Assembly (NCBI GenBank): GCA_015179125.1
Contig: WHVA01000014.1
Coordinates: 248,001-312,000 of the forward strand
Reading direction: 5' to 3'
Origin: Gautieria morchelliformis
Lineage: Eukaryota > Basidiomycota > Agaricomycetes > Gomphales > Gomphaceae
Length of the DNA: 64,000 nucleotides
Position 1 is the first letter of the stretch. The number at the start of each line of letters is the position of its first letter. The notes beneath the pieces are model-generated. The model ran no database searches and had not been told where the DNA came from. It was given only the letters and a program-made list of their open reading frames with translations. The position numbers were made by a program, and so were the translations under genes. Shown here one piece after another: positions 4,984 to 61,668 of the stretch.

Positions 4984-7308
4984 TCATCGCATCTTCATCC
5001 TTTTCCCACCTTTATCCCCTGACATGGCACTTTTACGTTTTACACTCTCGACGAGGCGCAAAAGACTCGCGGGCTCACTCCCACCGTCACCCCGCTGACG
5101 TTCAGCGTGCACTTCGGCTTTCGCACCGTTACGTCGTCGTTTTGCACGTTCCTCCAGAAGTGCTGACATGCTCTTGGTCTTTTTGAAGCTGGGATGGTCA
5201 TCCGAAAAATTAACTATGTCAAACTATGAAATTTGGGAGACCGCTCACTGAGGATTCGAGGGGTCAATCGCAAACGCATGGTCCTCATGCAAAGCTTTAA
5301 AGCGGTCGTCCTTGACGTTGATGGAAAAATCTTCTTGCGCTTCGTCCTCGTTAGTTCTTGACTCTATGTTTTTCTTCCTATTTCTTCCTCGACTCTTCGA
5401 CCCAACCTTTTCGGCTCTGACAACAGAGCGCATATCGAAGTGCTTCGGTTCCGGCTCTACAGATGTCACAAGAAGCTCCAGCTCGGCCGGCGTTGACTCT
5501 ACGCGCTTGATTTTTTGAGTTTCTGACCCCATGGACAGAGGTTTGGCCGTCTGTTTACCAGCAGCAGCCGGCGCCACCTCTTGCCCTCCATCTTCGCTAT
5601 CCTCTCCGAAAAATTCGTCAACCTGATTTGTCAGTTTTTCGTCCTTTACTCGTTCAGATTTAGCTTTCTTCTCCTTTCGCTTCTCCTTCTGCTTCCTAAG
5701 ATACCGTTGCAAACTTGTCTCTTCCTCACCTCTCGCATCGTCCGGTTCTTTACTTAGCCCAGGGGCGAATGTTATCTCCATATCTCCGGCTTTATCAAAA
5801 CTGTTACCCCAGCCTTCTGGTAGAAGTTCATTGTCTTCGCTGGACCCTCCCAATAAAAGGGCACGCAGTTTATCCCGTTTCATAGTCGGGGCAGTTGTAA
5901 CATCAGAATCTTCGTCAGAGCTGCCTGAGGAGGCAAGGTACGCTTTGAAGTCGGATTCTTCGATTTCTTTTCGCGAGAGTGTCCGGCGGGTGAGTTTGTT
6001 ACGCTCCGGATCATCGTCGTCCCAAGTCAGTTTCACTTTGGAGTGACGAAGGGCCTGACAGCGTGTGACCTTTGGGGAGTGGAAGGTGTAAAGAACCACT
6101 CACATCTGTGACAAACTCCACACCCTTCTGGTTTTCAGAGGGGGCCCGTGTGGCCTCATCACTGGAGTAGACATTATTGCATCCTAAAAAATGAGAGATA
6201 ATGACATACGCTTACCTGACTTCGTTGTCAAAAACCATACCATCCGGTACAAAGCTCAGGTCAAACATATTTGCTGATCGTTCGAGTTCGGTCCCGTCAA
6301 GTTCTGAATAAATATGGGCGGCAGCCTCGACGGTATTGCAAGTGACAATTGCATAATAATATCTACATGCCATTTATATAAGCTCACTGCGCTTGTCCAA
6401 CGAACAAACACACACCGAAGCCGTTCAAGCTGATACCTTCGGAGCGCATCTTCATCGTACTCCTTGCCATCGTCATGGGCCGCAAGATATGGCCCATTGT
6501 CACCATCTTGTAAACCAGACTTTTTGAAAAGCTCCTTCGGCGGCCCTTCTTTCCGCTCCCGTTCCAGCCTCACCCTTCCAAATTCACTAGGGTATATCTG
6601 GACCTTCAATACCTTCCCTTGTGAAAATATTGTCATCGGCTTTTCACGTCTGCGTGGGGCTGACGGCGAAGGGGAGACAACAGACGAGAATATTTGGAAC
6701 AAGTGAGATGCTCGAACATGATCCCAGTCCAAGTTGACGACTGCCAGCCGATTTGTTTGTTCACCGCCGGCTGAGGTGGCAGGCACGTTACCATCACGGT
6801 TTTCGGCGGCTGCGTTGACCTCGGCAAGAGCATCGAGCCCGGCAAATTGAGATTCGTCCAAATCTATCTCGGGCTCGTCAGCAGAGGCATCGATGACATC
6901 CCGCCCAAGGACGACCTCGCCATCATCTTCTTCAGAATCATGAACGTGTTGATCCTCCTCATCAGAGCTATCCATGAGGACCTCGCCACGAGCATAGTCT
7001 GGCACGGCAGATTCGGGGGGAAGTTCCTCTTCTTGCTCAAGGCGATAGAAACGCTTTAGATTGTCACTTTTATGACTTGAAGATAGTTTTCGACCATATT
7101 TATCGACTGTTGCATCTAAAACGATATTAGCAAACTTGCGCACTAAACGTGAATGGTCTGGCGCACTTTTAACTTTCTCATTATGTTTGGTTGCTTTGTC
7201 GTCGAATATGGACTTGAAGCGGTCATCGACGACGACCTTATGCGACTTTCTATGCGGTTTGCGAAAGCGGGGATCTGTTTTGAGACGTGCAAACCGAGGG
7301 TCAGACAT
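4984..7308 (-). CDS. ESF1: ESF1-type pre-rRNA processing protein
   Basis: Nucleolar protein needed for 18S rRNA maturation in the small-subunit processome. The N-terminus MSDPRFARLKTDPRFRKPHR is characteristic, followed by the acidic segment DSSDEEDQHVHDSEEDDGEV. The conserved core contains LAVVNLDWDHVRASHLFQIF and LKVQIYPSEFGRVRLERE. A 53-base intron (6363-6415) joins YQLERLR to YYYAIVTCNTVEAAA. Further introns lie near 6165-6218, 6060-6105 and 5195-5245. The C-terminal half is highly charged (KLTWDDDDPERNKLTRR), with a NUC153-like motif DDRFKALHEDHAFAIDPSNP, then a basic tail ending KRMKMR. The order of these parts and the length match the family. Confidence 0.92.
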
Positions 7309-7730
7309 CGCTGCAGGATTGAGCCGTATTTTTAGATAAACTGTTATTTCGAGTTAATTACATAATTATGACTTACTGCCATTGGTTTATGACTGACGTT
7401 ACCCTGGCCCTGGGAAATCCCCCGTTACCCTGGAAGACCCTGGGAAAGAAATCCCCATGTCTACGATAGAGTCGAATGTACCTCAGCTCAAATAGCCGCC
7501 ATCTGATACGGAATGGCGGCAATTGTCACAGCCCTATAACACAAGCCTCTCTTCCTTCCAACCCCCATCTCCTTTTCACCGTTTTCCTTGTATGTCCATG
7601 TCTGTCCCTACTTTTATGTTTTTACATTCACCATCTCTTTGCTATAGTTCGTACTTCACTCCGCAGGCCGCCGGACGACCATCCTTTCGAATACAGTTCA
7701 TTTCGCGCTGATCAAGAATCACCCGTCAAG
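7309..7730. promoter_or_regulatory. Divergent upstream region, ESF1 and repeat-peptide gene
   Basis: Shared 422-base upstream region. It holds an imperfect direct repeat: GTTACCCTGG, CCCTGGGAAA and ATCCCC recur in that order at 7398-7422 and again at 7424-7456, the second copy with two small insertions. A pyrimidine-rich tract at about 7545-7610 lies before the repeat-peptide start codon, as is common in fungal 5' leaders. No TATA box is evident. Confidence 0.4.
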
Positions 7731-8994
7731 ATGCTGTCCAGTACTATCATGCTCGCTGTGGTCGCATGCCTCTTCACAGAGTCATCGGCAATGCCCATGC
7801 CCATAAAGGTAAAATCTCTTTCGTTTTGCTTAAATGTTATTTTGACCCTCGTCTCGAGAATATGGTCGTGACCCGTGAATTGCCTTTGGATGTCATTCCC
7901 GCCTACGTGAGGAAGGATTTTATCCCTGACTCAACACCCACCGCAGCAGAGTTTGTACAGTTTGGTCTACGTACATACCTATCCCTTAACGACTCATTCT
8001 AGTGGAGGAGACCCCCACCCCGTCAGACGTGGTTTAATCCCGGACAGCATACTCACAGCTTCTGAGTGAGTATTTATTCATCGTGAATGATCCACTTTGC
8101 TCAAAGCCTTTCTTAGGGGAGGAGACCCCCACCCCGTCAGACGTGGTTTAATCCCGGACAGCATACTCACAGCTTCTGAGTGAGTATTTCTTCATCGGGA
8201 ACGATCTACATCATTGATGGCTTCACAAAGGGGCGGAGACCCACACCCCGTCAGACGTGGTTTAATCCCGGACAGCATACTCACAGCTTCTGAGTGAGTA
8301 TTTATTCATCGTGAATGATCCACTTTGCTCAAAGCCTTTCTTAGGGGAGGAGACCCCCACCCTGTCAAACGTGGTTTAATCCCGGACAGCATACTCACAG
8401 CTTCTGAGTGAGTATTTATTCATCGTGAATGATCCACTTTGCTCAGAGCCTTTCTTAGGGGAGGAGACCTCCACCCTGTCAAACGTGGTTTAATCCCGGA
8501 CAGCATACTCACAGCTTCTGAGTGAGTATTTATTCATCGTGAATGATCCACTTTGCTCAAAGCCTTTCTTAGGGGAGGAGACCCCCACCCTGTCAAACGT
8601 GGTTTAATCCCGGACAGCATACTCACAGCTTCTGAGTGAGTATTTATTTATCGGGAACGATCCACATCATTGATGGATTCACAAAGGGGCGGAGACCCAC
8701 ACGCCGTCAGACGTGATTTTATCCCGGACAGCACACCAACAGCCGCTGAGTGGGTATTCACTTGTCATGAGCAATCCACTTTACTCAAAGCCTTTCTTAG
8801 CGGCGGGGACCCCCACCCCGTCAAGCGTGATGTGGGCCTCGTTGCTCCAGTAATGGCTCCGTAAGTGAGAAGAGAATTCTAGATGCTACCACTTACTAAG
8901 ATACATTCGTACAGACGCGGAATTGTTGTTCCGTACAATGTCAGTAGTCACCACTATCTTACTTGCTCTTAATCCTGATTTCGCCGCTCAGTAA
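7731..8994 (+). CDS. Secreted Kex2-processed repeat peptide precursor (KEP-like)
   Basis: Not a recognised named gene. Exon 1 (7731-7808) encodes a hydrophobic signal peptide, MLSSTIMLAVVACLFTESSA. Exon 2 (7859-7950) carries VIPAYVRKDFIPDSTPTAA. Seven exons of exactly 63 bases follow (8003-8065, 8117-8179, 8231-8293, 8345-8407, 8459-8521, 8573-8635, 8687-8749), all in phase 2, then a 60-base exon (8801-8860) and a short last exon from 8915. Each unit reads GGDPHPV, then RR or KR, then GLIPDSILTASE. Cleavage after RR/KR would release GLIPDSILTASEGGDPHPV, 19 residues once the dibasic pair is trimmed, with DFIPDSTPTAAD variants at both ends. About 232 residues. The stop at 8992-8994 assumes a last intron 8940-8991; reading through instead ends about 20 bases earlier. 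The layout matches KEP-type precursors; peptide function is unknown. Confidence 0.8.
7951..8800 (+). repeat. Tandem exon-intron cassette array, 114-base period
   Basis: The period is 63 bases of exon plus 51 bases of intron. Introns come in two sequence types: type A ends CAAAGCCTTTCTTAG, and type B contains CATTGATGG and ends TTCACAAAG. The order of introns after units 1-7 is A, B, A, A, A, B and a diverged A. Exons that follow a type B intron begin GGGCGGAGACCCACAC, while the others mostly begin GGGAGGAGAC. Exon starts and introns have therefore been copied together, pointing to unequal crossing-over or gene conversion of whole cassettes. All donors read GTGAGT except the last, GTGGGT. Confidence 0.92.
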
Positions 8995-60720: not shown

Positions 60721-61668
60721 ATGTCAGACCAGAAAGCACAATACACACCTCCTTCCCATCCACCAAGTGATAGTAGGCCATTGCCAAAAGGTAAGTGTCT
60801 TTGTATCGTGATCAGCGCTTAGCCGCCCATATCCCGCCTGTCAGGATGGATCCAGCAGTTTGACTCCAAGTACTTCCTTGATTTTGCGTCACATATCGCC
60901 CATTACTGATGCCAAGTTAAACAGTTCCAGTGCATGGTTTTACGTGAGTGATTAGCCCGTCAGAGGGCCTTCGAGCGGTCTGTTAATTTCTATTCCAGGT
61001 AGATACAACGGCCTCACCGCCGCGCTCAGTTTGGGTGCACCCATACGACGACCCTCAGTACCTGGCGAATCATCCTCATGACGCAGGTTATGACAGCCCA
61101 CCAGGGTATCAAGGGACCCCGAGCCCTCCCCCCGTTCCATCCGCTTCGCGGCCTAACGTGAATGAAAAGGGCAAGGCACCCGAAAAGCGAGGCTTCCTGG
61201 GCAAACTCAAGGATAAAGCCATCGGGACCAAGGAAGAAAGAGCAGCAGCGAAACGTCTTCGAGAACATGAGGTTTGTTGTATCCAGACGTCTGCTCTCGC
61301 TTTGCTTACAAGACAATGTCTTACAGCGCCAAGAACGTCTCGCTCGTCAACGGGAGCATGCTGCCATGTATGGGGCACCCCCTCAAGTATATCCCGGGCA
61401 AATGCAGCAATACCCGGGTGGCGGATTCCAGCAAGGGGGTTTCCATCCAGGCCCCCAGCAGCAAGGTTATGGACAGCCGATGTATGTCCAGCAACCTCAG
61501 GCTGCTGGTCGATCAGGCCTCGGAGGTGGTGGGATGGCACTTCCCTTGATTGGTGGCTTGGCTGGTGGCCTCCTACTCGGCGATATGCTCGGGGGCGGAT
61601 TTGGAGGCGGTGATTTCGGGGGCGGTGATTTCGGAGGCGGTGGCGATTTTGGTGGCGGTGGCTTTTAG
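60721..61668 (+). CDS. WW-domain protein with a Gly-rich tail
   Basis: WW domains bind proline motifs. Begins MSDQKAQYTPPSHPPSDSRP; three small introns then split the WW domain, which reads LPKGWIQQFDSNSSAWFYVD and TTASPPRSVWVHPYDDPQY. Both Trp positions and the closing Pro are present, although the second strand is short. A Pro-rich linker precedes a basic helix (GFLGKLKDKAIGTKEERAAA), then a Gln/Gly/Tyr/Pro-rich stretch (QMQQYPGGGFQQGGFHPGPQ) and LPLIGGLAGGLLLGDMLGG. The tail is a GGGDF repeat run ending at 61668. Such WW proteins with Gly-rich tails are common in basidiomycetes; role unknown. About 225 residues. Confidence 0.85.

Follow-up and report, generated by a model that had tools for sequence, protein, structure and literature searches.

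A predicted KEX2-processed repeat protein gene of Gautieria morchelliformis built from tandem exon–intron cassettes

The window analysed here, 64,000 nucleotides of the Gautieria morchelliformis genome assembly (122 Mb, 1113 contigs), lies on contig C160 (520 kb). Between an ESF1-like gene on the minus strand, whose start codon was read near position 7308, and an ADP/ATP-carrier-like gene read from 9363 onwards, we built a gene model at 7731–8994 on the plus strand. It comprises 12 exons and 11 introns, and its 699 spliced nucleotides encode 232 residues in frame. Introns were placed by GT and AG, so their GT…AG ends hold by construction. Nine introns are in phase 2 and two in phase 0 (7809–7858 and 8940–8991); seven of the phase-2 introns, each 51 nt long, follow the seven cassette exons of 63 nt each, and the other two are 7951–8002 and 8861–8914. 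The first-pass annotation had anticipated about nine phase-2 splice events; the model has nine, the total of 11 with two phase-0 introns being a refinement. Intron 1 is required, because the unspliced frame ends shortly past it (ORF 7476–7871). Exons 11 and 12 are less certain, since read-through of either donor also yields a short open tail. The features are as follows.

7731–7808, plus strand: exon 1, with the start codon and a signal-peptide-like N terminus, MLSSTIMLAVVACLFTESSA followed by MPMPIK (translation, Kyte–Doolittle)
7859–7950, plus strand: exon 2, with the propeptide NMVVTRELPLDVIPAYVRK and the first half of outer peptide 1 (DFIPDSTPTAA, the next codon being split)
8000–8823, plus strand: 114-bp tandem exon–intron array, 7.2 copies, 86% matches (Tandem Repeats Finder)
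8003–8065, plus strand: cassette exon 1, 63 nt, phase 2-2, which completes outer peptide 1 and continues through RR into inner peptide 1
8066–8116, plus strand: A-type intron, 51 nt, with 0–1 differences in the copies at 8294–8344, 8408–8458 and 8522–8572
8117–8179, plus strand: cassette exon 2 (RR; spliced model)
8180–8230, plus strand: B-type intron, 51 nt, with a second copy at 8636–8686 (4 differences)
8231–8293, plus strand: cassette exon 3 (RR), after a B-type intron (spliced model)
8345–8407, plus strand: cassette exon 4 (KR; spliced model)
8459–8521, plus strand: cassette exon 5 (KR; P-to-L variant GGDLHPV; spliced model)
8573–8635, plus strand: cassette exon 6 (KR; spliced model)
8687–8749, plus strand: cassette exon 7 (RR; P-to-A variant GGDPHAV; start of outer peptide 2), after a B-type intron
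8750–8800, plus strand: A-type intron, diverged copy (10 differences)
8801–8860, plus strand: exon 10, with the end of outer peptide 2, KR and the C-terminal tail DVGLVAPVMAP (spliced model)
8915–8939, plus strand: exon 11 (less certain), tail RGIVVPYN (spliced model)
8992–8994, plus strand: exon 12 (least certain), a TAA stop right behind the CAG acceptor (spliced model)

This array is the one strong tandem repeat that Tandem Repeats Finder reported in the window, the other four rows being short and weak. Its 114-bp unit corresponds to one 63-nt phase-2/2 exon and one 51-nt intron. Between 8066 and 8800 the introns succeed one another as A, B, A, A, A, B and A′, and GGGCGGAGACCCACAC is common to both exons that come after B-type introns. 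The succession of intron types and the shared GGGCGGAGACCCACAC therefore indicate that exon and intron moved jointly as a 114-bp unit; some exchange between array units appears to have accompanied this movement. The array would have expanded by tandem duplication of the complete exon–intron cassette, the intron travelling with the exon each time. The length of the exon is divisible by three and its two ends share one phase, so that cassettes can be gained or lost with the frame intact; omission of any single cassette exon from the model keeps the frame and reaches the same C terminus (7/7).

The predicted protein begins with a stretch that resembles a signal peptide, as judged from hydropathy and by eye. 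The Kyte–Doolittle 9-residue mean is 3.0 over residues 7–15, and small residues occupy positions −3 and −1, in keeping with the signal peptide proposed at first pass. The −3,−1 rule was used to place the cleavage site, and residues 21–45 form a propeptide with RK at its end. Nine dibasic sites, with their first residues at 44, 65, 86, 107, 128, 149, 170, 191 and 212 and thus spaced by exactly 21, bound eight 19-mers; behind every one of these stands RR or KR. Eight of the nine sites are KR or RR. They run, exactly as the first-pass annotation had listed them, RK first, RR in units 1–3, KR in 4–6, RR in 7 and KR in 8. The left boundary of the first outer peptide is thus RK, a poor kexin site, and that of every other peptide is KR or RR. 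Dibasic sites account for 18 of the 21 Lys and Arg residues, with none inside any core.

The six inner cores conform to GLIPDSILTASEGGD[P/L]H[P/A]V, four exactly, one with the P-to-L and one with the P-to-A change. The outer cores, the first and the last, are identical (DFIPDSTPTAADGGDPHPV); a count by eye gives 6 differences from the inner core over the 19 positions. Each core is encoded across two adjacent exons. All are acidic, with a charge of about −3 to −4 at pH 7 and GRAVY values of 0.03 and −0.61; they lack Tyr and Trp, and Phe occurs in the outer cores only. Predicted monoisotopic masses are 1873.94 Da (GLIPDSILTASEGGDPHPV) and 1907.85 Da (DFIPDSTPTAADGGDPHPV). The earlier estimate of about eight 19-residue peptides thus holds in number, given the dibasic spacing, but not as a single kind, since six are inner and two outer.

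Searches for relatives covered viral, prokaryote, Pfam and PDB sets, none of which is a broad fungal protein set. The protein gave 5 pattern matches against viral contigs and 97 against a prokaryote genome set, none of them confirmed in either. Pfam, searched to E = 10, returned two hits, both below the curated cut-off (best E = 0.048). In the PDB, also to E = 10, chain ZZ4 matched residues 80–175 of the repeat at E = 0.011 and was taken as a composition match. Four fragments of the peptide had no match in the text of the literature searched. The first-pass annotation had not recognised the peptide, and these results agree: no Pfam family above its cut-off, no convincing PDB match and no literature match for the fragments. 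Within the genome, a protein search with the draft N-terminal part gave at least 8 matches, all within the repeat gene, and a DNA search at least 5, all within the array; among the matches listed, the assembly would thus hold the gene at one locus. The neighbouring ESF1-like ORF has one genome match, and the assembly therefore offers no second allele for comparison. A 5.8S rRNA search of the genome found no match.

Cassette exons 1–6 differ from one another at 0–5 of 63 nt, and because the inner copies barely differ, in introns as in exons, their DNA says little on coding. Such uniformity would suit a minisatellite without coding function or a decayed gene, in which tandem duplication happened to leave the frames open, as would the relatives not found in the four collections searched. 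The old outer copies argue against this reading. They differ at 13 of 63 nt and at 1 of 21 residues, an R/K exchange at the Kex2 P2 position. Within their first 33 nt, all eight base differences are silent, an outcome that eight random substitutions reached in 3 of 400,000 trials (7.5e-6) for this one pair of copies; read in the other two frames, the same eight differences cause 6 and 7 residue changes. The exons are also less diverged than the adjoining introns: a comparison of the A type with the B type shows 16 differences in 51 nt, one of exons 2 and 3 shows 2 in 63 nt (Fisher P = 4e-5, for the most favourable pair). Between exon 3 and exons 1, 2, 4, 5 and 6 there are 2–5 differences in 63 positions. 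For exon 7, which likewise follows a B-type intron, the differences from exons 1–6 amount to 8–13 of 63 nt, and the exon–intron contrast is weaker there. Patchy gene conversion could contribute to the contrast.

The introns carry a further signal. In every one of the 11 introns an adenine lies 14 nt before the 3′ end, and in 10 it sits in a YTNA context; the exception is intron 8861–8914, where CTTAC occurs 6 nt upstream of that position. All 11 were checked after a 13-nt spacing had been noticed in several, and they are not independent, about seven being distinct. Aligned with each other, introns 7951–8002 and 8750–8800 show 32 identities, 15 mismatches and 9 gap positions, and despite this divergence both retain GT, AG, phase and branch adenine. 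The last bases of the B-type introns are ACAAAG, and their branch site, TTGAT, is fuller than the CTCAA or CTCAG of the A-type introns. The neighbouring carrier gene has three introns of 55–57 nt, with YTNAY in the same zone in two and absent in one; being of like size, they indicate that small introns of such build are usual here. With a branch adenine kept even in strongly diverged introns, silent changes between the outer copies and a single unbroken frame from signal peptide to stop, a minisatellite or decayed gene is extremely improbable; the array is, to judge from its sequence, more than a minisatellite.

A KEP, or KEX2-processed repeat protein, is defined by a signal peptide, internal repeats and Kex2 sites between the repeats, as given in the accessible parts of PMC6339444 and PMC7329392. 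The predicted protein combines an N-terminal signal peptide, recognised by hydropathy and by eye, with near-identical repeats and Kex2 sites between them, and the genome encodes a kexin homologue. The latter lies on contig C372 (L012), where a P domain (E = 1.1e-15) follows S8-type catalytic blocks and is accompanied by a transmembrane-like stretch and an acidic tail, both of these and the catalytic blocks having been read by eye. This kexin could process the precursor. P-domain matches in the genome number at least one, the exon-by-exon search giving a lower bound; three kex2 genes are described for C. cinerea and other agaricomycetes in PMC9769878.

We conclude that the gene very probably encodes a KEP releasing linear acidic peptides. 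We infer the following course from the sequence. Once the gene is transcribed, the eleven small introns would be removed by splicing, and the precursor would enter the secretory pathway via its signal peptide. A Golgi kexin would cleave after the KR and RR sites, and a Kex1-type carboxypeptidase would remove the basic residues. The secreted products would be about eight linear acidic 19-mers, six of the GLIPDSILTASEGGDPHPV type and two DFIPDSTPTAADGGDPHPV. Such products would be in keeping with agaricomycete KEP peptides, which the available portion of PMC9769878 describes as linear and minimally modified and, in four agaricomycetes, as detected by mass spectrometry.

Kex2-cut repeat proteins can also act on the hyphal wall, as Rep1 of Ustilago maydis does (PMC6339444, PMC7329392, both in part). 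Like the precursor described here, Rep1 is a basidiomycete Kex2-cut repeat precursor, but its peptides are longer, at 37 aa, and act on hyphal wall properties (PMC6339444, same portion). On this model, the protein would be an uncut repetitive surface or wall protein, or would yield long repellent peptides like those of Rep1, its repeats acting in the wall and not as signals. The 19-residue cores, however, are acidic and not strongly hydrophobic (GRAVY as above), and the near confinement of Lys and Arg to the dibasic sites suggests that cutting matters, so we regard a wall function of this kind as very unlikely.

The precursors of GigA/epichloecyclins and ustiloxins, the dikaritins, likewise combine a signal peptide with Kex2-bounded repeats and are counted among KEPs in the accessible text of PMC7329392. 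Were the gene here of that type, UstYa-family oxidases would close its cores into macrocycles, as they do for ustiloxin, asperipin and the epichloecyclins, and the genome does contain three UstYa hits, on contigs C509 and C291. Dikaritins give cyclic peptides, and a Tyr in the core is usual for them; here the cores have neither Tyr nor Trp, and Phe only in the outer ones, and the 520-kb contig that carries the gene has no UstYa hit in an exon-by-exon search, in which intron-broken genes may be missed. More generally, 103 of 1680 basidiomycete KEPs (6.1%) have a DUF3328 gene nearby (PMC7329392, same portion). The window contains 288 stop-to-stop ORFs with a length of 75 aa or more, and 208 of these were scanned with Pfam to survey the gene's surroundings, shorter ORFs being outside the scan; the 80 set aside by eye are mainly frames that share their DNA with a longer ORF, small ORFs across the repeat gene among them. 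The families named by these scans, which do not give positions, are mostly housekeeping (E up to 0.001): ESF1 RRM, NUC153, mitochondrial carrier, PINIT with MIZ-type zinc fingers, Indigoidine_A, PfkB, helicase domains, aldehyde dehydrogenase, CS, RNA cap methyltransferase, seipin, Na/H exchanger, BRE4, ArAE_2_N, LCCL, FtsH-type AAA and M41 peptidase, and TRAPP Trs85. BRE4 and ArAE_2_N are fungal families and, like the small introns, point to a fungal genome. A tRNA scan of the window found no tRNA gene. Peptide-tailoring families of fungal peptide clusters do not occur among the hits of the scanned ORFs. The cyclisation that the first-pass annotation had considered thus finds nothing in its support, and a dikaritin-type product is very unlikely.

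A linear KEP product remains our reading, and its closest counterparts in build are the agaricomycete KEPs C. cinerea KEP 497993, L. edodes KEP 2599 and P. ostreatus KEP 1091723, which are likewise secreted and have short Kex2-bounded cores. In sequence, the core differs from those quoted for them, as far as the available text shows, in having no N-terminal Gln, no C-terminal Trp and no XA/XP Ste13 motif. KEPs with a Ste13 signature are defined by XA or XP following the Kex2 site (PMC6339444, in the part consulted). The cores here start with GL or DF and thus lack this dipeptide of the alpha-pheromone-like KEPs. The 497993 core had no match in the genome, in a search run without a positive control. 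MiSSP8 of Laccaria bicolor has a repeat of DWRR type, unlike the core here. It is likewise a fungal Kex2-cut repeat precursor, and a role in mycorrhiza is reported for it (PMC7329392, in part).

KEPs are widespread in fungi, and a role is known for few of their peptides. An orphan core is ordinary among them, because 2560 of the 7878 KEPs surveyed, from 1345 of 1461 strains, have no homologue (PMC7329392, survey figures as given in the accessible text). In PMC9769878, six kep knockouts had no visible phenotype and KEP peptides no antibacterial action in the tests performed, and roles towards the biotic environment are suggested. By analogy, our best guess is that the peptides most likely serve as an extracellular signal or as mediators towards other organisms, rather than as a housekeeping part. 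The gene would add a peptide pair that has no match in the literature searched and for which two exact masses are predicted.

What sets the gene apart is one intron per repeat, an unusual feature as judged from the literature searched and a single genome. KEP genes with introns are on record, five C. cinerea ones having been amplified from cDNA to be intron-less (PMC9769878, in part). The SP7 effector gene has one conserved intron, upstream of the first repeat, and AM-fungus surface-protein genes have one or two introns each (PMC11333574 and PMC8786786, respectively, each in the text available). An intron-per-repeat KEP gene has no account in the literature searched, which did not extend to the gigA paper; the main texts of PMC7329392 and PMC6339444, so far as accessible, contain neither ‘intron’ nor ‘exon’, and that of PMC9769878 has ‘intron’ once and ‘exon’ never. 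The gene is thus a compact case in which complete exon–intron cassettes, not exonic repeats alone, were multiplied. The same structure in other fungi, if true, would explain how copy number changes with splicing intact.

The cassette architecture might also be used and not only inherited, with splicing setting the peptide dose and the ratio of outer to inner peptides. Retention of any of the six introns from 8066–8116 to 8636–8686 brings a TGA right after GLIPDSILTASE, the first 12 residues of the next inner peptide (6/6), so that the resulting precursor would be shortened, contain a fixed number of whole peptides and finish in a novel, truncated end. Splicing of the A-type introns could be inefficient, because CTCAA and CTCAG lack the final pyrimidine, and this weak branch context, present in four of the six introns, would favour retention. 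Counter to such control, retention of 8750–8800 leaves the frame open, and messages with early stops are often destroyed. We consider this use of the architecture very unlikely.

Two observations lie apart from the gene. At about 14.6–18.0 kb of contig C509 (L009, L010), two UstYa (DUF3328) hits on opposite strands are separated by about 3 kb and may mark an RiPP-type cluster in another part of the genome; around two of the three UstYa hits, L009 (3.2 kb) and L011 (3.5 kb), there are no tandem repeats. Within the window, 61598–61662 holds short tandem repeats of 15–18 bp (GATTTCGGAGGCGGT), possibly encoding a Gly/Phe-rich stretch.
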